The translations under genes were made by a program, and so were the position numbers. Positions 2,577-17,745 of a DNA stretch of 22,870 bases are shown here, in pieces. How positions within the stretch are numbered: position 1 is the first letter of the stretch; each line of letters starts with the position of its first letter. The notes under the pieces are model-generated. The model saw only the letters and a list, made by a program, of their open reading frames with translations. It was not told the origin of the DNA and did not search any database. The stretch covers positions 1 through 22,870 of IMG/VR virus record IMGVR_UViG_3300036719_004074, one strand, 5' to 3'. Origin of the DNA: a virus.

Positions 2577-2605
2577 TTGACAGGATAAACGCCACATGAG
2601 AAGAT
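2577..2605 (+). promoter_or_regulatory. candidate promoter P1 (class A, leaderless)
   Basis: TTGACA (2577-2582) is followed by GGATAAACGCC, a block shared with the promoters at 4683, 8675 and 17718. A 17-nt spacer leads to a weak -10 (GAAGAT, 2600-2605). The ATG at 2611 is 5 nt further on, so transcription would start at about the start codon. Confidence 0.5.
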
Positions 2606-2610
2606 AGGTC

Positions 2611-2862
2611 ATGCAAAAAACCGCATCTCAGGCGACGCCCACTAAGGGCAACGACACGGCGAACCCCGTGAACGAAATCCGCAAGCTCGACCGCAAGGTC
2701 ACGGTCACCGTCGAAAGCGACCCGTGGGACTCCTACGGATGCGACTTCAAGATCAAAACGATCACGCGTAGCTTCACTCACACTTTGACGGTTGCCCGCG
2801 AGGAAGCGGAAAGCATCAAGACTCAACTCGACGCACTCCTCGCCATCAAAACACTCGCCTGA
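2611..2862 (+). CDS. small protein of unknown function
   Basis: This is an 83-residue protein. The N-terminus is polar, and the middle has alternating strand-like segments (KVTVTVESDPWDSYGCDFKIKTITRSFTHTL, split over residues 30-60). A C-terminal amphipathic helix follows (AREEAESIKTQLDALLAI). I do not recognise it. It is the first gene after promoter P1, with the ATG 28 nt after the -35 box and no Shine-Dalgarno. The alpha/beta layout suggests a small folded phage accessory protein. Confidence 0.6.
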   Translation: MQKTASQATPTKGNDTANPVNEIRKLDRKVTVTVESDPWDSYGCDFKIKTITRSFTHTLTVAREEAESIKTQLDALLAIKTLA

Positions 2863-2868
2863 GAACGA

Positions 2869-2895
2869 CGCCGGGAGCGCCTGCGGCTCCCGGCG
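2869..2895 (+). terminator. 10-bp hairpin after the 2611 gene, possible terminator or mRNA stabiliser
   Basis: CGCCGGGAGC (2869-2878) and GCTCCCGGCG (2886-2895) are perfect inverted repeats around a 7-nt loop, 6 nt after a stop codon. No T-run follows (the next bases are AATCTCAAACCC), so intrinsic termination is doubtful. It shares the GCCGGGAG core with the 12-bp palindromes elsewhere in the window. Confidence 0.45.
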
Positions 2896-2912
2896 AATCT
2901 CAAACCCAAAGC

Positions 2913-3122
2913 ATGAAACTCCAATCCACCATCTTCCTCGACCGCCCCGAAGGCGAGATCGAAGCCAACATCACCGGCAAACTCTACCGCGGCAATCCCC
3001 GCGACGTGGACGACCCTAGCGAGATCGACGACCTGACGGCGCACACCGCGGCCGGCGACGTGATCGAATTGAACGAAACCGAAGTCGAGCAGGCCGAGGA
3101 GGCGCTGCTGGCGATTGCCTGA
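2913..3122 (+). CDS. small acidic protein of unknown function
   Basis: This 69-residue acidic protein begins with a strand-like segment (KLQSTIFLDRPEGEIEANITG). It ends with an acidic helix (TEVEQAEEALLAIA) that includes a DVIELNETE turn. It is unrecognised. The opening sequence resembles a small beta-sheet fold that many phages encode next to early genes. The start has a G-poor leader (CAAACCCAAAGC) and no Shine-Dalgarno. It lies just downstream of the hairpin at 2869-2895. Confidence 0.55.
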   Translation: MKLQSTIFLDRPEGEIEANITGKLYRGNPRDVDDPSEIDDLTAHTAAGDVIELNETEVEQAEEALLAIA

Positions 3123-3146
3123 TCCAAACCCAAGAAAACCCAAACC

Positions 3147-3398
3147 ATGACCACCACCGAAGCCCTCACCATCCTCCAAAAAGCCGACCCTACCAAATCG
3201 TGGTTTGCCACCAAGCAGTCGGCGATTTACGACCACACCGAAAACAAAAGCGTAGAAACCGAATACACGATTAGCAGTCTGCCTGGATTGAACGGAAGCA
3301 AATGCCAGCAGATCAAGAGCAGCGAAGGATTCGATGCGCCCGTCCAACAGTTTCTCAGCATCATCAACTCAATACCCGCAACACCCAACGACGAATAA
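3147..3398 (+). CDS. small protein of unknown function
   Basis: This 83-residue protein has an N-terminal helix (TTTEALTILQKADPTKSWFATK), a central strand region and a C-terminal helix (DAPVQQFLSIINSI). There are no recognisable motifs. The ATG follows the A/C-rich leader GAAAACCCAAACC, and the next gene starts 3 nt after its stop, so it belongs to the same run as its neighbours. Confidence 0.55.
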   Translation: MTTTEALTILQKADPTKSWFATKQSAIYDHTENKSVETEYTISSLPGLNGSKCQQIKSSEGFDAPVQQFLSIINSIPATPNDE

Positions 3399-3401
3399 AC
3401 C

Positions 3402-4421
3402 ATGACCACCGAACCCATCACCCTCACCCTCGCCATTCCAGACGACACCGCGCCCGACATCCGGGACGAAGCGAAGCGCGAGATCGAAACCGTCGCCAGC
3501 GCAATCTTGGTAGCGATGCAGATCACCGGACTTGCCCCCGAATTTACCCGGCGCCGAGAGCGGCTGGTCGCCAACGCGCTGGCCGTCGCCCAAGTGCAGA
3601 GCACGAAAGACGAGGCCGCAGCGAACGCCGCCTACAAAGAACTCGGCGCGCTCAAGAAGGAGATCGAGGCGCAGGAGGCTGTCTGGAAAGGCCCGCTGAA
3701 CGCCACCAAGGCAAAAATCATTGACCTTGTGGAGGAAGGGCTCGAACCCGTCACGAAGGCGCGGAAGCGCCTGAAGGACATGATCGACGGCCACGCAGCC
3801 GAGCTGCTGGCCGAGCAGCGCCGGCAGGAAGCCGAGCGCCAAGCCGCAATCGCCCGAGCCGCCGCCGAGCAGCGCGCAGCCGAGGAAGCCGCCGCAAGAC
3901 TCGCCCGAGAGCAGGAAGCCGCCACCCGCGCCGCCGAGCAGGCCCAACGCGACGCCGAGGAAGCCGCCAAACGCGCTGCCGAGGCCAACAGCCCCGCCGC
4001 CAAAGCCGCGGCCGCCAAAGCGCAGCAGGACGCCGAGGATGCACAGCGCAAGGCACAGGAGGATGAGGCCAGGCTCGCGCAGGAGGCCCAGGACGCCGCC
4101 GACGCCGCCGACGCCGCCGCGATGCTCCCCACCGCCCCGCCTGTTGCCGAGATCACCCACGCCCGCGGAGTCAGCGCCAAGATGGTGCGCGACTTCGCCC
4201 TGCTCGGCGACCCTGACCCCTTCCGCGCGGCCCGCAGCGCGGAACAGTTCGCCGCCTTCATCCTCACCCAGCGCCCCGACCTTGCGCGCCTCCTGAAGAT
4301 CGAAATCCGCCGCGCCGATATGCTGGAATTCCTCAAGGACGAGGCAGCCGCCAAAGCCATCGCCGAGGCCAAGCCGCCCGGCATTCGCTTTTTTGAAAGA
4401 GTGCAGTCAACCAACCGCTAA
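3402..4421 (+). CDS. alanine-rich coiled-coil protein
   Basis: This is a 339-residue protein. The first ~110 residues are helical, with a stretch (VWKGPLNATKAKIIDLVEEGLEPVTKA, in two parts around residues 95-125) typical of phage proteins found beside recombination genes. Residues ~125-245 form a long Ala/Glu/Gln/Arg coiled coil with many AAEEA-type repeats, including the 9-base repeat GACGCCGCC at about 4094-4120. The last ~95 residues (from THARGVSAKMVRDFALLGDP) look globular. I suspect a single-strand annealing or recombination accessory role because SSB and the ERF annealase follow, but no enzymatic motif is visible. Confidence 0.7.
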   Translation: MTTEPITLTLAIPDDTAPDIRDEAKREIETVASAILVAMQITGLAPEFTRRRERLVANALAVAQVQSTKDEAAANAAYKELGALKKEIEAQEAVWKGPLNATKAKIIDLVEEGLEPVTKARKRLKDMIDGHAAELLAEQRRQEAERQAAIARAAAEQRAAEEAAARLAREQEAATRAAEQAQRDAEEAAKRAAEANSPAAKAAAAKAQQDAEDAQRKAQEDEARLAQEAQDAADAADAAAMLPTAPPVAEITHARGVSAKMVRDFALLGDPDPFRAARSAEQFAAFILTQRPDLARLLKIEIRRADMLEFLKDEAAAKAIAEAKPPGIRFFERVQSTNR

Positions 4422-4434
4422 CCAATCCAAACCC

Positions 4435-4686
4435 ATGACCAGAAAACCCGTAAAAAGCAGCCAACTTGCCGCCATCGGCTACGATCCCATCAGCCAAACG
4501 CTGGAGGTCGAATTCACCCCGACGAGAAAACAGGAGGCAGCCGACCATCCCGGCAGCATCTACCAATACAGCAACGTCGCACCCGGCGACGCCGCGCGCC
4601 TCGAAGAAGCGGAGTCCGTCGGCAGCCACTTCATCAAGATCATCAAGGCCGACCCCGAGCGTTTCCCGTTCAAAAAGATCAGTTGA
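4435..4686 (+). CDS. KTSC-domain protein
   Basis: This 83-residue protein matches the small KTSC domain, named from the C-terminus of a lysyl-tRNA synthetase. Visible landmarks are KSSQLAAIGYDPISQTLEV (residues ~7-25), a tyrosine strand SIYQYSNVAP (41-50) and a helix containing EAESVGSHFIKIIK. In other genomes KTSC proteins occur alone in phages and plasmids, and their biochemical role is poorly defined. I start at ATG 4435, which follows the leader CCAATCCAAACCC, not an in-frame upstream ATG inside the previous gene. Its TGA lies within the TTGACA of the next promoter. Confidence 0.7.
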   Translation: MTRKPVKSSQLAAIGYDPISQTLEVEFTPTRKQEAADHPGSIYQYSNVAPGDAARLEEAESVGSHFIKIIKADPERFPFKKIS

Positions 4687-4711
4687 CACAATAAACGACC
4701 AGCACCATACT
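4683..4711 (+). promoter_or_regulatory. promoter P2 upstream of SSB (class A)
   Basis: TTGACA (4683-4688), a 17-nt spacer starting CAATAAACGAC, then CATACT (4706-4711). The -35 contains the stop codon of the KTSC gene. The SSB ATG is 44 nt after the -35, so this is the one promoter of the family that would give a short 5' leader (A/C-rich, no Shine-Dalgarno). Confidence 0.6.
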
Positions 4712-4732
4712 TCGCAACACCAAAACCCACCA

Positions 4733-5197
4733 ATGGCATCCTTCAACAAAGTCATCATCATCGGCAACCTCACCCGCGATCCCGAGGTAAAATACAGCCC
4801 AAAAGGCACCGCAATCGCGGACATCGGCCTTGCGGTAAACCACACCTACAAGACCGGCGACGGCGAGAAGCGCGAGGAGGTCACATTTATCGACGTGACA
4901 TTCTGGGGCCGCGTCGCCGAGATCGTCGGCGAATACTGCAAGAAGGGCCGTCCGCTCTTTGTCGAAGGACGCCTTAAGCTCGACACATGGGACGACAAAG
5001 CCACCGGCCAGAAGCGCAGCAAGCTCAAGGTGATCGGCGAGAACATTCAACTGCTCGGCTCCAAGGGGGAAAGCGGCGAGCAGGGCGAAAGCCACCCGGC
5101 ACCGGGACGCTCCGCGCCGAGCCGACCGGCCGCACCTCCGCGGAGGCCGCCGACAGACTCAGACCTCGACGCACCGGAAAACGATGAGCCCTTCTGA
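4733..5197 (+). CDS. ssb: single-stranded DNA-binding protein
   Basis: This 154-residue protein opens with the classic SSB start (MASFNKVIIIGNLTRDPEV). An OB-fold follows: YSPKGTAIADIGLAV, then FIDVTFWGRVAEIVGEYCKK, then GRLKLDTWDDKATGQKRS. Residues ~108-145 are a Pro/Gly/Ser-rich linker, and the acidic tip DLDAPENDEPF ends in the DxPF-type tail that recruits partner proteins. Length and layout are normal for bacterial or phage SSB. The ATG at 4733 was chosen because the OB-fold begins there. It works with the adjacent ERF annealase and the DnaB helicase in recombination and replication. Confidence 0.95.
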   Translation: MASFNKVIIIGNLTRDPEVKYSPKGTAIADIGLAVNHTYKTGDGEKREEVTFIDVTFWGRVAEIVGEYCKKGRPLFVEGRLKLDTWDDKATGQKRSKLKVIGENIQLLGSKGESGEQGESHPAPGRSAPSRPAAPPRRPPTDSDLDAPENDEPF

Positions 5198-5224
5198 TTT
5201 CAACCAACCCAAACCCAAATAACC

Positions 5225-6262
5225 ATGACACAGCCAAGCAACCCAAGCTCGCCGACCGCGGGCAACATTTACATGGCGATGGCCGCGATTACCCGCGACA
5301 TCGACATCATCAGCAAAGACCGGAAGAACGAACAGCAGGGATTCAAATTCCGCGGCATTGACGACGCCTACAACGCCCTGCACCCGATTTTTGCGGCGCA
5401 CGGCGTCTTCTGCCTTCCGGTCATCGAAAGCGTGACGCAGACCGACGCCGGAAAAACCGCTAAAGGAACGCCAATCACCCGCACGATGCTCACAATGGGC
5501 TACCGCTTCACCGCCAGCGACGGCAGCTACGTCGAGGCCAGGCTGCCCGGAGAAGGCATGGACAGCGCCGACAAGGGCACCGCCAAGGCGATGAGCGTGG
5601 CGCACAAATACCTACTGCTCCAGACCTTCCTCGTCCCGACCGCGGACATCATCGACGCCGACTCCTACGACCCGACCGTGATGCCGCGCGAGGAGCTTGC
5701 CCGCCGCCGGGAGCAACAGGCCAAGGACGCCACCGACAAAGACATCATCGCGCAGATGATTGAGCAGCACCTCGAAAACGCCGCCCTGACCGAATCCACC
5801 ACCGAGAAAAGCCGCCTGCAAGGACTCGCCGCAGAACTTCGGTGCAAACTGGCGGAAATGGAGCGTCCAGTCGCAGGCAAGGAGATCGCCCAGCACGCCG
5901 AGAACGAGGAACCCGAGCAACCCGCATCCGACCCGGTGCCGGGACCGCACCCGAAAGCCGAACCGCCACCCAAGCGGATGGCTGCCGAGGCTACCACCGA
6001 CTGGCGCACCGTGGACTTCTCCCACAAAAGCCCCAAGGTTGGCAGCCTGCTCTACGGCAAGACCGTCGGCGACATCTACGCCAGCGAGCCCGGCACCATC
6101 GTCCGCGCCAAAAAAATCCTCGGCGGCTTTATGCAGACGATGGACGAGATCGCCAAGAAGAACGAGGCCGGCGAGACCGTCGCCTTCGCCCCGGCAGACA
6201 TGCGCCTCTACACCGCCGTCTGCGAGGCCGAACGCTGGCTCGCCAACCAACCCGCCAAGTGA
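5225..6262 (+). CDS. ERF-family single-strand annealing recombinase
   Basis: This 345-residue protein has the ERF core: KFRGIDDAYNALHPIFAAHG (residues 41-60), VFCLPVIESV, and the signature GEGMDSADKGTAKAMSVAHK (109-128), leading into KYLLLQTFLVPTADIIDAD. ERF proteins anneal complementary single strands during phage recombination and end repair. A Pro/Glu-rich linker (about 200-260) precedes a second globular region (265-345, DWRTVDFSHKSPKVGSLLYG) that I do not recognise and that may mediate oligomerisation or SSB contact. The gene follows SSB after the leader AACCCAAACCCAAATAACC. Its stop overlaps the RusA start (GTGA 6259-6262). Confidence 0.9.
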   Translation: MTQPSNPSSPTAGNIYMAMAAITRDIDIISKDRKNEQQGFKFRGIDDAYNALHPIFAAHGVFCLPVIESVTQTDAGKTAKGTPITRTMLTMGYRFTASDGSYVEARLPGEGMDSADKGTAKAMSVAHKYLLLQTFLVPTADIIDADSYDPTVMPREELARRREQQAKDATDKDIIAQMIEQHLENAALTESTTEKSRLQGLAAELRCKLAEMERPVAGKEIAQHAENEEPEQPASDPVPGPHPKAEPPPKRMAAEATTDWRTVDFSHKSPKVGSLLYGKTVGDIYASEPGTIVRAKKILGGFMQTMDEIAKKNEAGETVAFAPADMRLYTAVCEAERWLANQPAK

Positions 6263-6708
6263 TTGAGCCAATTATTTTCTCAGTCAGCGGAAAACCCCAG
6301 CCAGCCGGAAGCAAACGCGCCTTTGTCCTGAAAGGCGGAGCCCACGCAGGCCGAGCGATCATCACCGACGCCAATCCGAAAGCGAAAGATTGGAAGATGG
6401 ACGTGAAACACGAGGCCCAACGCGCCTACACCGGAGAGCCGTGGGACTGCCCGATTGAATTGACGCTGCGCTTTTTTGTGGAACGACCGAAATCGCACTA
6501 CCGAACTGGAGTGAACGCCGACAAGCTGAAGGACTCCGCGCCCGCGTTCCCGGCCAGCAAGCCAGACGTGCTGAAGCTGGCCCGCGGAGTCGAGGACGCC
6601 ATGACCGCGATTATCTGGAAGGACGACTCGCAGATCGTCACCGAGAAGCTGACCAAGCGATATGGCAGGCCGGGAGTGGAGATCGAAATCAAAGAGGCGG
6701 CAGTATGA
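6259..6708 (+). CDS. RusA-like Holliday junction resolvase
   Basis: This 149-residue protein starts at the GTG overlapping the ERF stop. Its N-terminus (IIFSVSGKPQPAGSKRAFV) matches the 'v.G.P.pkgr.r' opening of RusA proteins. The catalytic region KPDVLKLARGVEDAMT (101-116) followed by WKDDSQIV (120-127) holds the conserved acidic residues (Asp103, Asp113, Asp122-Asp123), and K-x-x-RY follows. RusA dimers cut Holliday junctions and branched DNA before packaging. Length is close to the usual 120-140 residues. An upstream extension of the open frame is a shadow of the ERF gene. Confidence 0.88.
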   Translation: MIEPIIFSVSGKPQPAGSKRAFVLKGGAHAGRAIITDANPKAKDWKMDVKHEAQRAYTGEPWDCPIELTLRFFVERPKSHYRTGVNADKLKDSAPAFPASKPDVLKLARGVEDAMTAIIWKDDSQIVTEKLTKRYGRPGVEIEIKEAAV

Positions 6709-6755
6709 GCGCCCTCGCCATCGCCGACTACGCCGACAGCCACTGGATACCATGA
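6705..6755 (+). CDS. 16-codon ORF bridging two stop/start overlaps
   Basis: ATG 6705 overlaps the RusA stop (ATGA), and the frame MSALAIADYADSHWIP ends in a TGA that overlaps the next ATG (ATGA 6752-6755). It may be only a coupling relay carrying ribosomes across the 43-nt gap, or the remnant of a larger gene. It is too short to judge as a functional peptide. Confidence 0.3.
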   Translation: MSALAIADYADSHWIP

Positions 6756-6934
6756 CGACTACCCACATCCTCAACGGCATACGACACCAACTCACCACCT
6801 GCCCCGAGTGCCACGGAGTCGGCACCCGGCGACGGGAGATCGAAGACCTGCACCGAAAGAGCGGCGCGACCACGATCATCCTCGACTGCAAACCCTGCAA
6901 AGGCCGAGGCTACACCAGAACCCAGCAACCATGA
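6752..6934 (+). CDS. small zinc-finger protein (DnaJ-like CxxCxGxG pairs)
   Basis: This 60-residue protein has two zinc-binding knuckles, CPECHGVG (Cys17, Cys20) and CKPCKGRG (Cys46, Cys49). They are separated by a charged 25-residue segment. These are CxxCxGxG motifs as in the DnaJ central domain, here as a single pair that would hold one zinc ion. Similar tiny proteins are common in phage replication regions, but their partners are unknown. It is coupled by ATGA to both neighbours (6752-6755 and 6931-6934). Confidence 0.7.
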   Translation: MTTTHILNGIRHQLTTCPECHGVGTRRREIEDLHRKSGATTIILDCKPCKGRGYTRTQQP

Positions 6935-7353
6935 CCACCCCAAGCCGCGAGACCATCGCCAAGCGCATTAAAGCCGGCTGGGAACCGGAGCGAGCCCGAA
7001 CGACTCCTCCGATGGCGGTCGGGATCAAGATGAAGACGGAACTCCGGCCCTACATCTACCCGAAGAACGGCAAGTTTTTCGGCAACGTCCGCGGGCCAGG
7101 CGACAAGCGGACATACCTCGGCACCTACCGGACCCGACAGGAAGCCGAGGACGCCGCCGCCCGCTACATCCTGACCGGCCAAAAGCCGCCGCGGTCGAAC
7201 GCACGGAAGGACCGGAAGCCACGCGAACCGAGAGCGCCACGGCCAGCGCAGAAGCGGGAACCGGTTACGGCCAGCGCCTCCCCGACGGCATCGCGCCGCA
7301 GCGGCGAGGAACGGATCGCCATGATGCGCCAAATCTGGAGGAGGCTCCAATGA
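6931..7353 (+). CDS. AP2-like DNA-binding protein
   Basis: This is a 140-residue protein. Residues ~41-82 (YIYPKNGKFFGNVRGPGDKR, then TYLGTYRTRQEAEDAAARYI) follow the AP2 pattern: a three-strand sheet with YLG-x-Y/F and a helix starting at the EAxxAY-like segment. In phages AP2 domains often accompany HNH nucleases. No HNH is attached here. The N-terminus (ETIAKRIKAGWEPERARTTP) looks like a small helical DNA-reading segment, and the C-terminus is a basic, Pro/Arg-rich tail. I start at ATG 6931, which overlaps the previous stop. It may be a regulator or a decayed AP2-HNH protein. Confidence 0.6.
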   Translation: MTTPSRETIAKRIKAGWEPERARTTPPMAVGIKMKTELRPYIYPKNGKFFGNVRGPGDKRTYLGTYRTRQEAEDAAARYILTGQKPPRSNARKDRKPREPRAPRPAQKREPVTASASPTASRRSGEERIAMMRQIWRRLQ

Positions 7354-8678
7354 AAGGACGCCCGCTACCCTACAGCGCCGAGGCCGAGGTCGGCTTCCTT
7401 TGCTCCTTCCTCCTATGCCCACGCGAACTCGGCGACTACTGCATCCAGCGCCGCATCACCGCGGCGACCATGCACCTGCCGGCCAACGCCGAGATTCTGC
7501 GAGTCCTGCTCGCGATGCACGCCGAGAAGGTGCCCATCGACCTGATCACCGTTACCGACGCCCTCCGAGACAAGGGTGAACTCGAAAGAGTCGGAGGAGC
7601 CGCCTACGTGACGGAGGTCTGCACCGCCACCGCCACCGCCGCGAACGCCGCCGCCTACGCCGACACGATCCTCGACAAAGCCCGCGCCCGCGCCCTGATC
7701 GCGACCTGCACCACGCACGCCGCCCGCGCCTACAGCGAGCAGGATGACATCACGGGCGTCCTCGCCAGCGCCGAGAAGGCAATACTCGCCATCGGAGCCG
7801 AGCGCTTTCAGGCCGGCTCCAAAACGATTCACGACCTCGTCATGGAGAGCATCCGCCGCATCGAGGCCGCGCAGGAGGCCGGCACCGGCATGAAAGGGCT
7901 GCCGACCGGGCTCCGCGACCTCGACGCCTACACCGGAGGCATGGCGCCCGGAGAATACATTGTCATCCAGGCGAAGCGCTCCGACGGCAAGACCGCGCTC
8001 GCCATGACCATTGCTGCCAACCTCGCCATCGACCTCAAGACCCCCGTCGGGATCATCAGCCTCGAAATGAGCGGAGAGGCGCTGACGACCCGCCTGATCG
8101 CCAGCCGGGCACGAGTGAACGGCGAAGACTTGATCCGCGGCAAGCTGACCAAGGGCGACGACCTCATGGCGCAGACCGACCCGTTCGCGGCCGTCGCGCG
8201 AGCCGCGTCCGAGATCGCCTCCTCGCCGATCCACATCGAGGACGAAGGCAACCAGGGTGTGCTCGAAATCAGCGCGAAACTCCGCCGCCTGCACTCGCAG
8301 CATGGCATCAAGGCTGCGTTTATCGACTACCTGACCTTGATGAAAGAGGACGCCCGCGGCGAAGACAAACGCCACGACCGCATCAGCGCCAACTCGAAAG
8401 GGCTCAAGAACCTCGCCAAGGAACTGAACATCCCCATCGTGGTGCTCTCGCAGGTCAACGCCGACGGCGAGGTGGCGGGAGCCAAGGCGATCTTGGACGA
8501 CGCCGACCAAATCTGGGCCATCTGGCCGGAAGGCGAGGACTTCGCCATCCGCATCCTGAAACAGCGCAGCGGAGCCAGGGGCGAAGACGTGCCCGTCCAC
8601 TTCGACAAGCCGACCACGACTTTCCGCAACGCCGAGCAGAAGCCGGAAAAGACGCCACCAGCAAGGAAAACCCGTTGA
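7350..8678 (+). CDS. DnaB-type replicative DNA helicase
   Basis: This 442-residue protein has the two-domain DnaB layout. An N-terminal helical domain (~1-110, PYSAEAEVGFLCSFLL, VGGAAYVTEV) is followed by a RecA-like ATPase introduced by GLPTGLRDLDAYTGGMAPGE. The Walker A is AKRSDGKTA (208-216), where DnaB normally has ARPSMGKTA, so Pro is replaced by Arg. Later motifs are IISLEMSGE, the Walker B region AFIDYLTLM, and IPIVVLSQVN. It would unwind DNA 5' to 3' at the phage fork. GGAGGAGG (7337-7344) lies 5 nt before the ATG, a rare clear Shine-Dalgarno here. No primase or loader gene is visible. Confidence 0.92.
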   Translation: MKGRPLPYSAEAEVGFLCSFLLCPRELGDYCIQRRITAATMHLPANAEILRVLLAMHAEKVPIDLITVTDALRDKGELERVGGAAYVTEVCTATATAANAAAYADTILDKARARALIATCTTHAARAYSEQDDITGVLASAEKAILAIGAERFQAGSKTIHDLVMESIRRIEAAQEAGTGMKGLPTGLRDLDAYTGGMAPGEYIVIQAKRSDGKTALAMTIAANLAIDLKTPVGIISLEMSGEALTTRLIASRARVNGEDLIRGKLTKGDDLMAQTDPFAAVARAASEIASSPIHIEDEGNQGVLEISAKLRRLHSQHGIKAAFIDYLTLMKEDARGEDKRHDRISANSKGLKNLAKELNIPIVVLSQVNADGEVAGAKAILDDADQIWAIWPEGEDFAIRILKQRSGARGEDVPVHFDKPTTTFRNAEQKPEKTPPARKTR

Positions 8679-8702
8679 CACAATACACGCCTGCACTACA
8701 CT
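8675..8702 (+). promoter_or_regulatory. promoter P3 (class A, leaderless)
   Basis: TTGACA (8675-8680) contains the helicase stop codon. A 16-nt spacer beginning CAATACACGCC leads to TACACT (8697-8702). The ATG at 8711 is 8 nt beyond the -10, so the mRNA should start at or within a few bases of the start codon. Confidence 0.65.
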
Positions 8703-8710
8703 CTATCCAC

Positions 8711-8818
8711 ATGATCACCATCATCACACACACGCTGGCAGTGATAGCGGGAGCAATCCTGCTTTTCGCGCTGTCGTTCGCAGCCGGCGCGGAACTCGCC
8801 TTCGCAACCACCCGATGA
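8711..8818 (+). CDS. 35-residue membrane protein
   Basis: It opens with MITIITHTLAVIAGAILLF and continues as one apolar helix into a short end (AELAFATTR). It is a single-TM peptide expressed directly from promoter P3. Its stop overlaps the next start (ATGA 8815-8818). The dedicated promoter argues for a real product. The role is unknown; membrane-located host takeover or superinfection exclusion are possibilities without direct evidence. Confidence 0.5.
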   Translation: MITIITHTLAVIAGAILLFALSFAAGAELAFATTR

Positions 8819-9075
8819 GCGCCACCAAAGAGCAGATCGACGCCGCCGCCCCGGTGCTGAAACGCATCCGCGAACTGTGCGACGCCGGGCTCGCGCAGAA
8901 AGGCGAGGTTGGCAGGTTCGTGCTTGGGGAATCCGCCAGCCGGCATGTCTGCTGCGCGACCGTCGTGAACTGGCTGGGAGGCCGCACCCCGAAGGCCGAA
9001 TACCTTGCCAAGCTCAAGCAGTGGATCGCCACCAAGGAGCGGCAGATGGCGAAGCTCTGCAAGCCCGCCAAGTAA
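8815..9075 (+). CDS. small HTH-like protein
   Basis: This is an 86-residue helical protein. Residues ~33-72 (GRFVLGESASRHVCCATVVN, then WLGGRTPKAEYLAKLKQWIA) resemble a Cro/C1-type helix-turn-helix ending in 'W..GR.P....L..l..wi'. This pattern is common in phage regulators and in some replication-region proteins. It is expressed with the 35-residue membrane protein from promoter P3. The DNA-binding call is moderate; the two adjacent Cys are unusual for the recognition helix. Confidence 0.5.
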   Translation: MSATKEQIDAAAPVLKRIRELCDAGLAQKGEVGRFVLGESASRHVCCATVVNWLGGRTPKAEYLAKLKQWIATKERQMAKLCKPAK

Positions 9076-9080
9076 TTTAA

Positions 9081-9092
9081 CCCGGCGCCGGG
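9081..9092. repeat. intercistronic palindrome CCCGGCGCCGGG, copy 2
   Basis: The perfect 12-mer starts 6 nt after the TAA that ends the 8815 gene and is followed by GAGACC. No T-run follows. Same element as at 2506 and 18659. Confidence 0.6.
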
Positions 9093-9118
9093 AGACCGGA
9101 CGCCACAACCCAACAACC

Positions 9119-9529
9119 ATGAACTACCCATCCCAACACGAAATCGTCCTGACCATTCTTGAGCTAATCGGCAGCATGGAAAGAGGCGAGTCACCGGCAG
9201 ATCGCGACAAAGAGCCAGGTCTTACGGCAATGGACTACTGGAGTAGCGATCTGCTCGACATTGCCGCCGATGTTGCCGGAATTCCCAGAGACAACACGGT
9301 GGAGACCGGAGCATGCGATGTTGCAAACAGCACTGGAAGCTGGCCGATTTGGGGGTATTGCCGAGACCAGATTAGGGAAAGGGTGACGGAGGAGAAAGAC
9401 AACCCCGAACGGCAGGCAGCAATCTTGATTACACAGGGCATGATGTCCAAAGAGATTTCCGCGCACGAAGCACTTGAAATGATGGAGGTCGCCGCACGCA
9501 AGCGGGCCACTCAGAATCAAAAGAACTGA
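9119..9529 (+). CDS. protein of unknown function, 136 residues
   Basis: The ATG at 9119 follows the leader CAACCCAACAACC. An upstream extension of the open frame crosses the palindrome and is rejected. The N-terminal helix (HEIVLTILELIGSME) is followed by an acidic region with several Trp (MDYWSSDLLDIAADVAGI, TGSWPIWGYCRD) and a C-terminal helix (SAHEALEMMEVAARKRA). Codon use is slightly less GC-rich than its neighbours. No family is recognised. Confidence 0.6.
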   Translation: MNYPSQHEIVLTILELIGSMERGESPADRDKEPGLTAMDYWSSDLLDIAADVAGIPRDNTVETGACDVANSTGSWPIWGYCRDQIRERVTEEKDNPERQAAILITQGMMSKEISAHEALEMMEVAARKRATQNQKN

Positions 9530-9545
9530 AACCAACCCAACAACC

Positions 9546-9734: not shown

Positions 9735-9741
9735 ACCAACC

Positions 9742-11219: not shown

Positions 11220-11392
11220 AGACCAAGCTGAAAGCCCTCGACACCGTGCGCTACCGCACCGGCAAACGCCGGATGCGCGGTACCGTCGTGGACTTTCTGC
11301 CGATGCCCGGACTCGACGCCGTGCCTGTGCTGCTCCGCAAAAAGGTAGTCTGGAAGCCGAGAGACGAAATCCGCAAGCTGCCCGCCAGATGA
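11216..11392 (+). CDS. small basic protein of unknown function, 58 residues
   Basis: The GTG overlaps the upstream stop (GTGA). The sequence has short strands around DTVRYRTGKRRMRGTVVDFL and VPVLLRKKVVWKPRDEI, resembling an SH3-like or KOW-like barrel with very basic loops. This could bind nucleic acid. Its stop overlaps the next ATG. Not recognised as a named family. Confidence 0.5.
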   Translation: MKTKLKALDTVRYRTGKRRMRGTVVDFLPMPGLDAVPVLLRKKVVWKPRDEIRKLPAR

Positions 11393-11724
11393 AGGCCAAA
11401 CGCAAAGCCAGCAAGCCGAAGCGCAGCCCCGAGGCCGACCTCTTGCAAGAAATCATCGCCGCGATGCTGCAAGGCTACGGCCCCGGAGGTCTGACAGCCC
11501 TTGCCAGCGCCCTCAAGCTTACCCCGAGTAATCTCCGCAAACGGATGGCGAGCCCGAGGGGGGCGTTCGATAGCGCCACGATCCTGGCCTACGTCGCCGC
11601 GAAGCAATGGAAGGCCGAGAACTTCACCGCCACCCCCATCCGCATCGCCCGCGTCGGACGCTTCGAGGTCGCCGTGCAGGACACGGACGCCGGACAGATA
11701 CCGACCTGGAGGGAAGCTCAGTGA
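11389..11724 (+). CDS. small HTH-like protein, 111 residues
   Basis: The ATG at 11389 overlaps the upstream stop. After a basic N-terminus (MKAKRKASKPKRSPEADLL), residues ~22-65 contain LTALASALKLTPSNLRKRMA, a good helix-turn-helix. A further helix (SATILAYVAAKQWK) and a C-terminal beta-like stretch (IRIARVGRFEVAVQD) follow. It may be a small regulator. An upstream open extension of the frame is a shadow of the two preceding genes. Confidence 0.55.
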   Translation: MKAKRKASKPKRSPEADLLQEIIAAMLQGYGPGGLTALASALKLTPSNLRKRMASPRGAFDSATILAYVAAKQWKAENFTATPIRIARVGRFEVAVQDTDAGQIPTWREAQ

Positions 11725-11894
11725 ACATTCTCGAAACCTACCTCCGGCAGCGCTCAAGCCCGCCCCACACCGCCGACGCGATGAACCTCCTGCAGGAGCA
11801 CGGAATCATCAGCGACCTCTGCGTCACCGACGCCGACGTGCCAGACTGCGACGCCGCCGACGCCGCCGACTTCTTGGAAATGACCACGCCATGA
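11721..11894 (+). CDS. small acidic protein of unknown function, 57 residues
   Basis: The GTG overlaps the previous stop, with GAGGGAAGC just upstream as a weak Shine-Dalgarno. The N-terminal half reads like a helical domain (TADAMNLLQEHGIISDLCV), and the C-terminal half is an Asp/Ala run (DCDAADAADFLE). Phages often carry short 'MNLLqehGiISD.cV...DV...D' proteins of this kind in accessory blocks. The function is unknown. Confidence 0.5.
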   Translation: MNILETYLRQRSSPPHTADAMNLLQEHGIISDLCVTDADVPDCDAADAADFLEMTTP

Positions 11895-12169
11895 CTGACC
11901 TAATCAACGAACTGCGCGCACAACTCGCCGCCGTCACCGCCGAGCAGGGCATCGCACAGGAAGTCCTGCGTGTGACCAAAAATGCGCTGGAGAGGCTCAC
12001 CGCCGAGCGCGACGCCGAACGCACGGCTCGGAAGGCGCTGGAGGAAGCAGGGAAAGCCGTGATGACTTTCCTCGACACACCGCTGTCTCCCGACACCATG
12101 CCCGATCCTGCGCTGGCCGTCGCCATGCTGGGCAGCGCCCTCGCCATCGCCGCCAAACTTCCCGCATGA
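11891..12169 (+). CDS. small coiled-coil protein, 92 residues
   Basis: The first ~55 residues form a heptad helix (LINELRAQLAAVTAEQGIAQ, continuing to RKALEEAG). The last ~35 are an apolar, Ala-rich helix (LAVAMLGSALAIAAKLPA). ATGA overlaps couple it to both neighbours. The downstream overlap at 12166-12169 leads into the 13-codon methyltransferase remnant. The function is unknown. Confidence 0.5.
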   Translation: MTDLINELRAQLAAVTAEQGIAQEVLRVTKNALERLTAERDAERTARKALEEAGKAVMTFLDTPLSPDTMPDPALAVAMLGSALAIAAKLPA

Positions 12170-12207
12170 AACTCGTCACCCGAAAGCTCAAGAGCCTCAA
12201 GCCGTGA
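12166..12207 (+). pseudogene. 5' remnant of the ParB-methyltransferase gene, cut by a homing endonuclease insertion
   Basis: ATG 12166 overlaps the upstream stop and reads MKLVTRKLKSLKP before TGA 12205-12207. The intact gene at 12722 begins MKLKTVSLKALKP and continues APWNPRE. Nine of 13 residues agree, and the break falls right after LKP. This fits an original gene start, coupled to the upstream gene, that was separated from its body when the homing endonuclease gene entered. The DNA identity is only moderate, so co-conversion from a related donor is likelier than a fresh duplication. Confidence 0.6.
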
Positions 12208-12212
12208 AATTG

Positions 12213-12241
12213 TTGACGGATATCAAACCAGCACATACAAT
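12213..12241 (+). promoter_or_regulatory. promoter P7 of the homing endonuclease gene
   Basis: TTGACG (12213-12218), a 17-nt spacer and TACAAT (12236-12241) are a near-consensus sigma70 pair. The ATG at 12249 is 7 nt downstream, predicting a leaderless message. The spacer lacks the ATAAACGCC block of class A promoters, which fits an imported gene with its own promoter. Confidence 0.7.
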
Positions 12242-12248
12242 GTGCCGG

Positions 12249-12725
12249 ATGAATGATTTAACAGACGAACAATTTGGACACTGGATGGCTGGCTTTACAG
12301 ATGGAGAGGGCTGCTTTTATTGCCGCGTATCAAGGCCGCGGCGAGGGTCGATATCTGAGGACATAGAGCCAGCGTTCAGCATTATTCTGAGAGATGACGA
12401 TCTTGCAATTTTAGAAGAAATAATTCTCAGGACGGGATGGAAAACAAGGATACAGCGGCACGGCGCGATGACCAACCGTCAAGGCATTCGATCAAATCCC
12501 AGGGCAAAACTTGAAGTTAGAAGGGCGCTGCACTGCATGGAGGTCGTGAGATTCTTCGACAAATTCCGACTCAGAGCTAAGAAGCGGAACGACTTCGCCA
12601 TCTGGCGAGAAATCGTGATAGGAATCGCGCAAGGACCAAGGGGCAGTAGATGGGGAGGCCCAGCAGACCGATCCGACATCATTTCAAAAATTGAACAACT
12701 CAAGGCAGGTAGGGCATACAAATGA
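12249..12725 (+). CDS. LAGLIDADG homing endonuclease (single-motif)
   Basis: This is a 158-residue protein. The motif HWMAGFTDGEGCFYCRVSR (residues 11-29) is a LAGLIDADG helix with the catalytic acidic residue in GFTDGEG. Further on, LRAKKRNDFAIWREIV is the familiar second-helix region of phage and organelle members. One motif implies a homodimer. Codon use is visibly more AT-rich (tta, aga, ttt, tat codons) than the flanks, indicating transfer. GTG 12204 is an alternative coupled start adding 15 residues, but the promoter P7 spacing favours ATG 12249. Its stop overlaps the methyltransferase ATG (12722-12725). The probable target is the conserved LKPxPWNPR-coding DNA. Confidence 0.9.
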   Translation: MNDLTDEQFGHWMAGFTDGEGCFYCRVSRPRRGSISEDIEPAFSIILRDDDLAILEEIILRTGWKTRIQRHGAMTNRQGIRSNPRAKLEVRRALHCMEVVRFFDKFRLRAKKRNDFAIWREIVIGIAQGPRGSRWGGPADRSDIISKIEQLKAGRAYK

Positions 12726-14050
12726 AACTCAAGACGGTCTCGCTTAAGGCGTTAAAACCTGCCCCGTGGAACCCCCGCGAAAGCCTCCAACCAGGAGAGC
12801 ACGAATACGAGGCGATCAAAGCCAGCCTAAACGAATTCGGGCTCGTCCAGCCGCTCGTTTTCAACCGCAAGTCTGGATTTCTGGTCGGAGGCCACCAGCG
12901 CCGCCAAGTGATGCTCGACCAAGGGATCACCGAGTGTCAGGTCGTGGAGGTGGACCTCGACGAAGCCGCCGAGCGCAAGCTGAACATCCAACTCAACGGA
13001 ACCGGCCGATGGGACGAGGATAAATTGGCGAGCCTGCTCGCCGAAATGAAGGGCCAGAGCATCGACCTCGGAAGCCTCGGTTTCTCCAAGACCGAGATCG
13101 CCGACCTCCTGACCAAAGCCAAGCCCAAGCCCAAGCAAGACCCCGACGCGCCTGCGCCACCGACCACCGTGGCGGTGACGAAACCCGGCGACATTTACGA
13201 ACTCTGGACCGAAGGCAGCGCCACCCGGCACCGGGTGATGTGCGGGGACTCCTGCGACCCGGAGCAGATGCATCGGCTGATGGACGGACAGAAGGCGCGG
13301 CTGGTCTTTATTGATCCGCCGTATGGCGTCAGCTACGAGAGCGCAGAGACCTCCAGACCCGGCACACGCCCACGTTACCAAGGCGCAATCGCCAACGACA
13401 ACCTCCGCGCTGGCAACCTCGTCCAGTTCCTCGCCCGAGCGTTCGAGCGCCTGCACGAGTCCACCATCGACCGCGCCGCCCTCTACTGCTTCTTCGCCTC
13501 CTGCAACCACATCGAATTCGAGACCGCGCTGATCGAGACTGGATGGCGAGTGAAGCAGGAACTGATCTGGGCCAAACAGATGGTCCTGAGCCGATCAGAC
13601 TACCATTGGGCGCACGAACCACTCCTGAGCTGCGCCAAAGCCGGCCAGAACAGCGAATGGCTCGGCGACCGCACCGAGACCACCCTACTGGACGAGGACG
13701 CGCCCGACATCGAGAAGATGAGCAAAGACGAGATGCGCGACCTTCTGCGCCAGATCCAGCAGAACAGCACCTACTGGCAGGAAAGCCGCGACAGCGCGCC
13801 AAGCCTCATACACCCCACCCAGAAGCCCACCAGCCTCTCCCGCCGCGCCCTCCGCAACAGCAGCCTGCCGGGCGAGATCGTCATCGACTCGTTCCTCGGC
13901 AGCGGATCAACCCTTGTGGGAGCGGAACTCGAAGGCCGCGTCTGCTTCGGTTCCGAGCTAGATCCCTGCTACGTGGACGCCGCGGTCGCCCGCTTCGGCA
14001 AGACCTTCGAGCACGCCCACACCAGCCTCAACGGGAAACAGTATGAGTGA
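12722..14050 (+). CDS. ParB-like domain / DNA methyltransferase fusion
   Basis: This is a 442-residue protein. Residues 1-110 are a ParB/Srx-type N-terminal domain: LKPAPWNPRE (11-20), GLVQPLVFN, and GGHQRRQ (56-62) in place of GExRxxA. After a Lys/Pro linker (~132-150), the methyltransferase has the catalytic motif DPPY (198-201) and then the SAM-binding motif FLGSGST (about 391-397). This DPPY-before-FxGxG order is that of beta-class N4-cytosine or N6-adenine enzymes. No restriction enzyme partner is visible, so self-protection or regulation is likelier than a restriction system. Such fusions are common in phages near terminases. Confidence 0.9.
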   Translation: MKLKTVSLKALKPAPWNPRESLQPGEHEYEAIKASLNEFGLVQPLVFNRKSGFLVGGHQRRQVMLDQGITECQVVEVDLDEAAERKLNIQLNGTGRWDEDKLASLLAEMKGQSIDLGSLGFSKTEIADLLTKAKPKPKQDPDAPAPPTTVAVTKPGDIYELWTEGSATRHRVMCGDSCDPEQMHRLMDGQKARLVFIDPPYGVSYESAETSRPGTRPRYQGAIANDNLRAGNLVQFLARAFERLHESTIDRAALYCFFASCNHIEFETALIETGWRVKQELIWAKQMVLSRSDYHWAHEPLLSCAKAGQNSEWLGDRTETTLLDEDAPDIEKMSKDEMRDLLRQIQQNSTYWQESRDSAPSLIHPTQKPTSLSRRALRNSSLPGEIVIDSFLGSGSTLVGAELEGRVCFGSELDPCYVDAAVARFGKTFEHAHTSLNGKQYE

Positions 14051-14057
14051 CCCCACT

Positions 14058-14086
14058 TTGACAACCGCCCAACCCACACCAGAGTA
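14058..14086 (+). promoter_or_regulatory. candidate promoter P6 before the small terminase (class B)
   Basis: TTGACA at 14058-14063 lies exactly 28 nt before the ATG at 14092. The -10 position (AGAGTA after 17 nt) is poor. The TTGACAACC...ACCCAC spacer resembles that of the promoter at 16498. Confidence 0.4.
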
Positions 14087-14091
14087 GAACC

Positions 14092-14841
14092 ATGCCGAAA
14101 CACACCACACCCGGCGCCGGAAACCCGACCGCCAAACAGATCAACGACATTGTGGCCGCAAGCCAAGGCGGCAACCCGCTCCCGCTGATATGCAAGGCGA
14201 CCAAGCTTAAACTCGAAACCGTCGAGGACTGGCTCCAGCGAGGACGCGAGGCCAAACCCGGCACCGATCTGCACACATTCGCCGCCGACTACGACGCAGC
14301 CGCGGCCCTTGCCGAGATCAGCCTCCGCAAATCCCTAAACGACCACGCCAAGACCAGCCCAGAGGCCGCATTTAAGCTCCTCGAACTTCAAGCCAAGGAC
14401 CGGGAAGCACCACCAGAAGCCAGCCGCCCGCTGGCAAACCCACTCCACGAAGCCCTCTGCCAACTCATGGCCACCCACGGCATGAAAGCCGGGCCAGCAT
14501 GGCGGAAACTCACCGGATGCAACCCGAAAAGCGCCAAAGCCAACGCCTCGCGCGCGCTAACCAATGCTACCCTGAAGTCCAGACTGGTCGCCCTGCAGAC
14601 CGCCAAGCACCAGAGTAATGTGCTAACGAAAGAGGACCGGCTGCGCGTCAGTTACGAAGTCGTTAACAGCGCGACCGCCACGCACGCCGACCGTCTCAGG
14701 GCAGCAAGGCAGGACGCCGAGCTAAAGGGCGAACTGATCGGCAAGACCGAACTGACCGGGCAGGACGGAGCGCCGCTGCCGAGCATCATCCCGGCGATCA
14801 TCATCCAAGCACCGCGGGCATCAGGCCGGAGAGCGGGATAA
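14092..14841 (+). CDS. probable terminase small subunit
   Basis: This is a 249-residue protein immediately upstream of the large terminase. The N-terminal helix-turn-helix-like region (PLICKATKLKLETVEDWLQR, about residues 30-50) precedes a helical stretch containing ALAEISLRKSL. The C-terminal half (AWRKLTGCNPKSAKANASRA, then a long helical segment to LKGELIGKTEL) resembles the Nu1/Terminase_2-type pattern in which gene-end helices carry oligomerisation. Small terminases recognise the packaging start site and load the large subunit. Identification rests on position and the HTH more than on a signature motif. Confidence 0.75.
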   Translation: MPKHTTPGAGNPTAKQINDIVAASQGGNPLPLICKATKLKLETVEDWLQRGREAKPGTDLHTFAADYDAAAALAEISLRKSLNDHAKTSPEAAFKLLELQAKDREAPPEASRPLANPLHEALCQLMATHGMKAGPAWRKLTGCNPKSAKANASRALTNATLKSRLVALQTAKHQSNVLTKEDRLRVSYEVVNSATATHADRLRAARQDAELKGELIGKTELTGQDGAPLPSIIPAIIIQAPRASGRRAG

Positions 14842-14860
14842 TCCACCAGCGCGCAGATCA

Positions 14861-16450
14861 ATGATCAGCCCAGCGCCAGAGTTCGGGACGCCAGGCAAAG
14901 GCGTGGCCGAGTTCCTCGACAGCCCGGCCTTCATTCGCGTCATGCTGGGAGGCCGAGGTTCGGGGAAAACGTACGGGCTCGCGCAGGACGCCTGCGAGCA
15001 CATCTGGCTGAACGCCGGCGCGAAAGTGATCGTGGCCCGCGAGACCGAGGCCAGCCAAGCGGACTCATCCATCGACACCTTCCTGACCTACTTCGAGAAC
15101 ATGGGACCGGGATGGGAGCCGGCCAGCACCGGGCTCTTTCAGACATGGAGCAACGGACGCAAAATCCGCGTGCCGAGCAAGCTCGCCCTCGAACGGCTCG
15201 CAGCCGTGCGGGACAGCCTGAAGAACCGAGCGGACATCGCCCACTGGATCGCCACCGAGGGCGACCGCCTGTGCGGCTACATCCACTTCCGCGGACTCCC
15301 AAAGGCCGAGAAGGGCAAGTTCCGCGGCATGGAGTGCAGCTACCTCGCGCTGGTTGAGGCCGACCAGATCGCCCGCTGGCAGTTCGACCTGAGCCTCGCG
15401 TGCCTGCGGTGGAAAGGCACCGACCCGGCGACATGCGACGAGAAAGGATTCATCAAAGACCGCTGCGTGGTGCTCGACACCAACCCGCCAGGGCCAGAGC
15501 ACTGGATCGCCAAGCTGGAGGCCGAGGAGACAGCCAAGCCCGAGAGCGAGCGCATCATCCGCTTCTGGCACCTCACCACCTACGAGAACGAGCACAACCT
15601 CCCCGAGAACTACATCCGCGACACCATCATCCTGCCCTACAGCGGCAACCCGGCGATGCTGGAGCGGATGCTTTACGGCCGATACGCCGACGCTTACGAC
15701 GGGAGCCCGGTTTATTACAACTTCAGCATCCCGATCCACGAAGGCAACGAGCTACCGTGGCCCGCCGGCGCCTACCTGATGCGCGGCCACGACGTCGGGA
15801 CCAACGCCGCCACCGTCTGGAGCGCCTATTGGGTGGAGAACGGCACCGAATACTGGCACGACCTCTTCGAGTTTTACCTCGAAGGCAGCGACACCGACCG
15901 GCACGTCAACGAGGTACTGAAGCTCACCGAGAGCGAGTTTCCCTTCTGGAATGACCGCGGCATCTGTGCCGGCATAGAGGACTTCATCGACCCAGCGGCA
16001 GCGAACAGCAGCTACACCAAGCAGATCGTCGTGGACGGCAAGAGCGTGAAGGAGAGCGCGCTGAACATCTTCCGCACCTACGGCATCTACCCGCGCTTCC
16101 AGACCCAGAGCCGCGGACTCATGGAGACTTTCGGCATCGTCAACCGCCTGATGGCGAAGCGCGACAGCCAAGGACGCCCCGTGTACCGCCTGGACGCCAA
16201 AGGATGCCCCAGACTCGCACGCGGCCTACACGGAGGCTACCGCTGGCCCCCAGCAGACGAGCGCGGAGGCAACGAGAACGTGCCGCTGAAGGGCGAGAAG
16301 TGCGAAAACCTCGACCACGTCCAGGACGCCGCCCGCTACGCCAAGATCAACGCCCTACGGCTCCTCAAGCTGGAGATCGAGAAAAAGGCACCACCGACCC
16401 CCTGGAACATGAGCAAGCCGAAGCCGGCGAACATGAAGCGCCGCATCTGA
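14861..16450 (+). CDS. terL: terminase large subunit
   Basis: This 529-residue packaging motor and nuclease has an N-terminal ATPase with Walker A GGRGSGKT (residues 30-37) and a Walker B-like LALVEADQI (163-170). Its C-terminal RNase H-like nuclease has acidic residues in RGHDVGTN (Asp311), GIEDFIDP (around 371-378) and a late DHVQDAARY (around 485-493). It translocates DNA into the prohead through the portal and cuts concatemers. The ATG at 14861 was chosen because it leaves the ATPase intact; no Shine-Dalgarno precedes it. The genus-level headful or cos type cannot be told from the sequence alone. Confidence 0.95.
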   Translation: MISPAPEFGTPGKGVAEFLDSPAFIRVMLGGRGSGKTYGLAQDACEHIWLNAGAKVIVARETEASQADSSIDTFLTYFENMGPGWEPASTGLFQTWSNGRKIRVPSKLALERLAAVRDSLKNRADIAHWIATEGDRLCGYIHFRGLPKAEKGKFRGMECSYLALVEADQIARWQFDLSLACLRWKGTDPATCDEKGFIKDRCVVLDTNPPGPEHWIAKLEAEETAKPESERIIRFWHLTTYENEHNLPENYIRDTIILPYSGNPAMLERMLYGRYADAYDGSPVYYNFSIPIHEGNELPWPAGAYLMRGHDVGTNAATVWSAYWVENGTEYWHDLFEFYLEGSDTDRHVNEVLKLTESEFPFWNDRGICAGIEDFIDPAAANSSYTKQIVVDGKSVKESALNIFRTYGIYPRFQTQSRGLMETFGIVNRLMAKRDSQGRPVYRLDAKGCPRLARGLHGGYRWPPADERGGNENVPLKGEKCENLDHVQDAARYAKINALRLLKLEIEKKAPPTPWNMSKPKPANMKRRI

Positions 16451-16497
16451 TCTGGAAAGAAAACGGACAGGCAATACAGAGAAGCCGCGTCAATTAT

Positions 16498-16526
16498 TTG
16501 ACAACCCAGCCGACCCACGCCATTAT
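16498..16526 (+). promoter_or_regulatory. promoter P5 (class B, leaderless)
   Basis: TTGACA (16498-16503), a 17-nt spacer (ACCCAGCCGACCCACGC) and CATTAT (16521-16526) are followed after 5 nt by the ATG at 16532. The spacer resembles that of the promoter before the small terminase (14058), not the class A promoters. The stretch 16451-16497 upstream shows nothing else. Confidence 0.6.
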
Positions 16527-16531
16527 GCCGC

Positions 16532-17098
16532 ATGAGCCCAGCCGAAATCACCGCAGCCGTCGAGAAGACCAAGCGCCTCGGGCGACTTGACTGGAACGAA
16601 CGACAAATGAGCACCGCCGCCAAAAGCATCGCCAGCAGCCTCAAGGAAATCCACGACCAGAAACTCTGGCAGGACACCTACGTAAGCTTCGAGGCATACT
16701 GCAAGACCAAGTGGGGAATCTCCCGGCAACGGGCATACCAGATGATCGGCGCGGAGAACGTCCGCATGATGCTGGCCGACTCGCCGGACGCCGAGGTCGC
16801 CGCTGTGGCCCCGACGCTCAACGACGGCCAGGCCAACGAACTAGCCGCCATCGAACCGGAGCAGCGCGTCGAGGTGCTCAAAGCTGCGCTCGCCGACCCA
16901 GCAAAGCTGACTGCATCGACCATCAAGCGCGCCAAGGCCCGCGTGATCGACGCCGCCACCGGCAGGCCCGAGCAGCAGGAGTTCAGCTTTACCATCAAGG
17001 CCAGCCCCGAGCACCGCGAGGACGCCGAATGGTTCAGTAAGCTGGCCGAGACCGACCGCGCCAACATCATTGCCGCAGCACGGAGGGCGATGGAATGA
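16532..17098 (+). CDS. helical DNA-binding-like protein
   Basis: This is a 188-residue, all-helical protein. The segment YVSFEAYCKTKWGISRQRAY, then QMIGAENV (about residues 50-77), is the 'f..y....w..s...ay..i..a' pattern seen in plasmid and phage ParB/KorB-like accessory proteins. A C-terminal portion (PEQRVEVLKAALADP, then LTASTIKRAKARVIDA) supports a similar fold. There is no nuclease or CTPase motif. It is directly expressed from promoter P5, 82 nt after terL. It may be a distant relative of the 9742 product. A regulator or partition-type role is inferred. Confidence 0.6.
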   Translation: MSPAEITAAVEKTKRLGRLDWNERQMSTAAKSIASSLKEIHDQKLWQDTYVSFEAYCKTKWGISRQRAYQMIGAENVRMMLADSPDAEVAAVAPTLNDGQANELAAIEPEQRVEVLKAALADPAKLTASTIKRAKARVIDAATGRPEQQEFSFTIKASPEHREDAEWFSKLAETDRANIIAAARRAME

Positions 17099-17400
17099 AA
17101 CGCTACGCTTACGACCGCACATCATGCCAGCTTCTCGAAATGGATGAGTCCGACTTCGCCAACGGCGTGCTGTGCCACCAGAACGGCAAAAAAGCGAGCG
17201 CAGGAACCGCCGTGCGCCGAGACGACACCAGCGCGACACCGGAGGAAGCGATCCTTCGGGCGGCTCGACTTTTCCACAGCCAGATCGAAAACAGCGCAGA
17301 ACTCGCCCGCCAGCACCTTGCGAACGTGAGCCGCTGGAACGAACACCTGAAGCGCATCACCAAGCATCCAAACACGCTGCCCATCACCACCCTGCAATGA
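17095..17400 (+). CDS. protein of unknown function, 101 residues
   Basis: The start overlaps the previous stop (ATGA) and has GGAGG (17082-17086) 8 nt upstream. The N-terminal half has short strands (KRYAYDRTSCQLLEMDESDF), and the C-terminal half is a long helix (ATPEEAILRAARLFHSQIEN, continuing to SRWNEHLKRI). Not recognised. Confidence 0.55.
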   Translation: MKRYAYDRTSCQLLEMDESDFANGVLCHQNGKKASAGTAVRRDDTSATPEEAILRAARLFHSQIENSAELARQHLANVSRWNEHLKRITKHPNTLPITTLQ

Positions 17401-17714
17401 ACCTCCACCGCACCGGCTACCGAATCATCAAGAAGCTCTACAGCCAAACGCGAGCGATCATGGCCGAGCACCACCCCGACCCGAACGCGCTCAAAAAGGC
17501 GCTTGCCGCCGGCCACGACATCGACATCGACCAGGTGCCGGGAGGCGACCCGATGCTCTACATTGTGGCCGACCAGCAGGCCGCGCAGAAGATGGCCGAC
17601 TTCAAGATCCCAAACCCGACGCTCCTCCAGATCATCGGCACCAGCCGCGTGATCGCCCTCACCGAGCAGGACGCCATCGACCGCTTCGAGAAGCTGATGC
17701 AGGCCGAGGAATAG
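17397..17714 (+). CDS. protein of unknown function, 105 residues
   Basis: An N-terminal basic helix (HRTGYRIIKKLYSQTRAIMA) is followed by a HHPDPNALKKALAAGHDID segment and a C-terminal helix (ALTEQDAIDRFEKLMQAEE). The centre has mixed strands (GGDPMLYIVADQQAAQKMA). ATGA coupling to the upstream gene is the main support for the start. No named family is apparent. It is the last gene before promoter P4. Confidence 0.5.
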   Translation: MNLHRTGYRIIKKLYSQTRAIMAEHHPDPNALKKALAAGHDIDIDQVPGGDPMLYIVADQQAAQKMADFKIPNPTLLQIIGTSRVIALTEQDAIDRFEKLMQAEE

Positions 17715-17717
17715 GAG

Positions 17718-17745
17718 TTGACTCGATAAACGCCGCGAGTAGGAT
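17718..17745 (+). promoter_or_regulatory. promoter P4 (class A, leaderless)
   Basis: TTGACT (17718-17723), a 16-nt spacer (CGATAAACGCCGCGAG) and TAGGAT (17740-17745). The ATG at 17751 follows after 5 nt. The spacer carries the ATAAACGCC block of class A, despite lying within the late region. Confidence 0.6.

Follow-up and report, generated by a model that had tools for sequence, protein, structure and literature searches.

The virus fragment IMGVR_UViG_3300036719_004074, a linear IMG/VR fragment of 22,870 bases from an uncultured phage analysed over its whole length (the window), carries six forward-strand genes with a sigma70-type promoter immediately ahead of the start codon, and these promoters are probably placed so that the host RNA polymerase would produce leaderless mRNAs. 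A sequence-only reading of the same DNA had described a promoter family with the -35 box fixed 27-30 nucleotides (nt) before the start and had predicted leaderless transcription from it; the observation is partly confirmed and the interpretation partly supported by the present analysis. Leaderless transcripts are the best reading of the nucleotide pattern at five sites (-35 boxes at 2577, 8675, 12213, 16498, and 17718) and are likely at the sixth, 14058.

Promoters adjacent to start codons

The TTGACA-like hexamers stand exactly where the sequence-only reading had put them, with 28, 30, 30, 28, 28, and 27 nt between hexamer end and start codon at 2577, 8675, 12213, 14058, 16498, and 17718, and the -10 hexamers it had named are present 5-8 nt ahead of the ATG. 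The strongest match in a promoter-first scan, TTGACG-17-TACAAT (12213..12241, rank 1), lies 7 nt before ATG 12249 of a LAGLIDADG endonuclease gene, in a 79-nt intergenic gap. TTGACA-16-TACACT (8675..8702, rank 3) precedes by 8 nt ATG 8711 of a 35-residue membrane-type open reading frame, to which the gene at 8815 is ATGA-coupled, and occupies a gap of 32 nt. Three others end 5 nt before their starts, namely TTGACA-17-CATTAT (16498..16526, rank 4; ATG 16532, 81-nt gap), TTGACT-16-TAGGAT (17718..17745, rank 8; ATG 17751 of a 218-residue product, 36-nt gap), and TTGACA-17-GAAGAT (2577..2605, rank 9; ATG 2611 of an 83-residue open reading frame, 108-nt gap). The sixth is a weak promoter, TTGACA-16/17-CAGAGT/AGAGTA (14058..14086, rank 18), 5-6 nt before ATG 14092 of a small terminase-like gene in a 41-nt gap. 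At these six sites the transcription start (+1) would fall on the start codon or no more than about 3 nt away, and the mRNAs are predicted to be leaderless because the promoter puts +1 at or near the ATG. The start codon is ATG in all six cases, and ATG is the codon favoured for leaderless initiation. The core of a Shine-Dalgarno (SD) sequence is absent before 2611, 8711, 12249, 14092, and 16532, so that the earlier claim that none of these genes has one holds for five of the six; at 17751, AGGA lies inside TAGGAT at SD spacing.

To gauge the role of chance, starts were picked blind to promoters, taking for each gene the first ATG close to where the preceding gene stops, and TTGACN was counted by distance (first T of the -35 box to A of the ATG, so that hexamer-end gaps of 27-30 nt become 33-36 nt). 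Five of the 38 genes have TTGACN at 33-36 nt, four of them as TTGACA, and every other 4-nt bin holds 0-2. Among the 19 forward TTGAC sites, five fall at this distance against 0.13 expected, a number reached in none of 200,000 random relocations, which upholds the expectation that enrichment at a fixed distance would exceed chance. The sixth site, 12213, also has its ATG (12249) at 36 nt, although blind selection settled on the in-frame ATG 12240 for that gene.

The promoter-first scan, run on both strands with a sigma70 weight matrix, leads to similar places. The top nine scores include 12213, 8675, 16498, 17718, and 2577, plus 751 and 4683, and seven of the nine best matches precede forward genes, with the -10 box either 5-8 nt (five sites) or 20-21 nt (751 and 4683) from the ATG. 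In addition, the window holds seven sigma70-type -35/-10 pairs 16-18 nt apart, against 2.5 expected in shuffles. The two promoters at the longer distance are TTGACA-17-CATACT (4683..4711, rank 5), 21 nt before ATG 4733 of ssb in a 46-nt gap and predicted to leave a leader of about 15 nt, and TTGACC-17-AATAAT (751..779, rank 2), 20 nt before ATG 800 of a small gene (800-1174), with a leader of about 13 nt. Since the latter is strong and leadered, the ssb promoter is not the sole leadered one, as had been supposed. A further proposed member, TTGACC at 255..260 ahead of GTG 289, was rejected because its promoter score is low (outside the top 24) and the GTGA overlap with the upstream stop makes ordinary coupling sufficient. 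Another detail stands as described, namely that the upstream gene's stop codon lies inside the -35 box at 4683 (TGA 4684-4686) and at 8675 (TGA 8676-8678).

If this layout is read correctly, the host RNA polymerase would use sigma70-type promoters whose +1 coincides with the A of the ATG or lies at most about 3 nt away, so that the mRNAs of the promoter-proximal genes 2611, 8711, 12249, 16532, and 17751, and probably 14092, would be leaderless. Initiation at the 5' AUG would then be carried out without an SD by 70S ribosomes or by 30S subunits loaded with initiator tRNA, and genes farther along each of these mRNAs would be translated by way of an ATGA coupling, an SD, or an A/C-rich start.

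Phage relatives and candidate hosts

The same geometry is found in one relative, L312 (IMG/VR 3300006931_000005), whose SSB and DnaB are 67% and 33% identical to those of the phage. In L312, TTGACA occurs 34-36 nt before ATGs at 4600, 5396, 8389, and 18136, with strong -10 boxes at 5396 and 8389. Its -35 boxes lie within TTGACA-N4-TGTCAA dyads, judged by eye to be exact at 2382 and 4600 and degenerate at 5396 and 8389; the dyads over the -35 boxes at 2373-2400 and 4600-4616 look like a repressor operator set. The L312 site at 5396 also resembles that at 16498 of the window, CATTAT included. Scans of viral contigs with DnaB and portal revealed no relatives.

Verrucomicrobiota are the likely host group, a suggestive assignment drawn from the phage SSB (ssb, 4733..5197, forward strand; PF00436), the closest relatives of which are the chromosomal SSBs of this phylum. 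The phage terminase was not found in the 93 genomes of the class to which genome G016 belongs (its locus L122 is titled Prosthecobacter). Across these genomes, the short-distance motif TTGAC-N16-20-TANNNT-N4-8-ATG occurs 2570 times versus 1526 for N14-18 in the last spacer, with backward controls of 1003 and 925, and its count is higher in 80 genomes and lower in 12. With exact TTGACA in 26 genomes, 913 occurrences lie at 27-30 nt, 764 at 39-42 nt, and 624 at 49-52 nt. At the gene level, TTG..TANNNT at 11-17 nt before the ATG was counted 12, 20, 8, and 9 times in the Verrucomicrobiae genomes G086, G117, G030, and G103, against 2.7, 3.7, 0, and 1.3 per 7 nt elsewhere; these four genomes were chosen for high short-distance motif counts and are therefore evidence for the existence of such lineages but not for their frequency. 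No SD peak is seen in G086, G117, and G103, and a modest one is present in G030 (4.43 vs 1.79), whereas E. coli K-12 under the same treatment gives no short-distance cases and a strong SD peak. G086, G117, and G103 are probable leaderless lineages by these genomic counts. G016 and G047 have no gene-level peak at short distance, so the trait is lineage-specific. In many soil Verrucomicrobia (L097-L147), a TANAAC-like box is conserved about 13 nt before the ATG of the chromosomal ssb, possibly an internal leaderless promoter.

Spacer elements and competing explanations

The promoters share more than their spacing at some sites. An element, GTTGACNNNATAMACG, lies in forward orientation at 2576-2591, 4682-4697, 8674-8689, and 17717-17732, that is, at the promoters 2577, 4683, 8675, and 17718; its core reads ATAAACG in the spacers of 2577, 4683, and 17718 and ATACACG in that of 8675. 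Three of the four sites have an identical 7-mer at one and the same offset, an agreement seen in 16 of 100,000 random draws; outside the element, the flanks show no likeness among the four. The window contains these four forward copies and none with the backwards pattern, and 93 candidate host genomes gave 23 matches, about the control level. An IMG/VR motif scan for GTTGACANNATAAACGNC returned 89 stretches, mostly read through within coding sequence (V-D-x-I-N), with an ATG at 33-36 nt in none. By eye, the promoters at 14058 and 16498 (14057-14082 and 16497-16522), which flank the terminase genes, both carry TTTGACAACC and ACCCACNCCA. The family proposed earlier is heterogeneous, four sites sharing one spacer element and two another, and the -10 box at 14058 is weak. 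The element GTTGACNNNATAMACG is possibly a phage operator and would probably serve a phage regulator; it is unnecessary for the 33-36 nt spacing because the leadered ssb promoter also has it.

These repeats raise the question of whether the TTGACA boxes serve chiefly as binding sites for a repressor or activator made by the phage, with the likeness to a -35 box and the spacing secondary and transcription perhaps starting elsewhere. The 7-mer, seldom matched in random draws, the occurrence of GTTGACNNNATAMACG at four sites and not as a host motif, and the dyads over the -35 boxes of L312 speak for such a role, yet 12213 and 16498 lack the shared element while having the best -10 boxes and the same spacing, and no clear helix-turn-helix regulator was recognised among the window genes; as a full explanation it is improbable. 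Compaction of the genome is only slightly more credible and still unlikely. In a tightly packed genome promoters would find space only in the short gaps ahead of genes, so that +1 would come to lie near the ATG by crowding, and leaders would be tiny even if leaderless translation were not selected for; the gaps at 8711, 17751, and 14092 are indeed barely long enough for a promoter, and at two sites the -35 box runs into the stop codon of the gene before. However, crowding does not explain the placement, because the roomy 79-108-nt gaps before 2611, 12249, and 16532 again keep the -35 box 34-36 nt from the ATG, and in the 46-nt gap before ssb, as at 751, the distance is 20-21 nt instead. Least probable of all, and quite unlikely, is translation mainly from read-through of upstream operons with chance or vestigial hexamers: nearly all genes lie on one strand with tight couplings, and AGGA precedes 17751 at SD spacing, but chance would hardly produce either the spacing enrichment or the ranking in the promoter-first scan.

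Several observations weigh against leaderless transcription. The start at 12249 was selected partly on its promoter, with an in-frame ATG upstream at 12240; the -10 boxes at 2577 and 14058 are weak; and an SD-like AGGA stands ahead of 17751. Among relatives, L312 has the same geometry but is the exception: the terminase relatives L005-L007 (45-47%) are without it, and a pool of 80 viral loci bearing ssb gives no peak at 33-36 nt. On the host side, leaderless signals are only weak in the lineages whose SSBs are most similar (G015 and G016), SSB similarity is lower in the lineages with the strongest leaderless signals, and the weak signals in G015 and G016 leave the link to Verrucomicrobiota suggestive rather than proven. 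Leaderless transcription is nevertheless supported by the position statistics, the long-gap sites, the six ATGs, the geometry in L312, and the candidate host lineages that combine this geometry with little or no SD signal. A broader version is tentative: in this phage and its relatives, every transcription unit might as a rule open with a leaderless gene, in keeping with a way of translating that several lineages of Verrucomicrobiae have in common, with the -35 box and spacer doubling as an operator so that one protein would control a set of leaderless transcripts.

Gene content and known leaderless systems

The genes recognised in the window, on the forward strand, include those for SSB, ERF recombinase, DnaB helicase, LAGLIDADG endonuclease, N6/N4 methylase, small and large terminase, and an SU10-type portal, and Megablast gave no match to known phages. 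The LAGLIDADG endonuclease gene (12249-12725) is free-standing and, with its own best-scoring promoter, lies directly ahead of the methylase gene. Three start types coexist in this one phage: promoter-adjacent starts, ordinary SD starts (7350, 10491, 17095, 18404, and 19104), and SD-less starts with an A/C-rich run abutting the ATG, such as AACCCAACAACC-ATG (2913, 3147, 3402, 4435, 4733, 5225, 6931, 9119, 9546, and 9742). The A/C fraction of the last 6 nt before the start is 0.74 in the phage versus 0.50-0.58 in candidate hosts; the run is stronger in the phage than in every candidate host sampled, and A/C-rich starts singled out no host genome.

The lambda cI gene transcribed from PRM gives a leaderless phage transcript from a sigma70 promoter; it is a single gene in a phage that otherwise uses SDs, whereas six promoter-proximal genes are concerned here. 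Leaderless initiation in lambda phage is noted in the literature (PMC3160421). Leaderless phage promoters are likewise known from Cluster O mycobacteriophages (the Corndog group), with the SigA-like PL1, PR2, and PL2 (PMC4351075). These phages resemble the present one in that their genome also carries, at other places, an element that recurs. They differ in that leaderless mRNAs are a known trait of their actinobacterial host, the leaderless promoters are only a part of the 8-9 present, and the repeat forms a 17-bp dyad of its own outside the promoter spacer; in the present phage the element lies within the spacer. In cellular genes, -10 regions adjacent to open reading frames in Deinococcus-Thermus (PMC12340547) and TA-like signals of leaderless genes (PMC3160421) likewise have the -10 box only a few nt upstream of the start and yield leaderless or very short-leader mRNAs, whereas the present case concerns phage genes with a near-consensus -35 box. 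Literature searches for leaderless transcripts of Thermus phages, a possible precedent, turned up no paper reporting them.

In the literature consulted, Verrucomicrobia are listed only as SD-scarce (PMC10783764) and are not described as leaderless, the text of the Zheng survey makes no mention of the phylum to which the host probably belongs, and the titles and abstracts searched contain no report of leaderless genes in Verrucomicrobia or Verrucomicrobiota. The start-adjacent promoter layout is thus known in other bacteria and phages and, among the literature searched, not in Verrucomicrobia or their phages. If the leaderless interpretation is true, the start codons of SD-less genes in this group of phages could be called accurately from promoter placement alone, and the finding would point to leaderless translation in some lineages of Verrucomicrobia.
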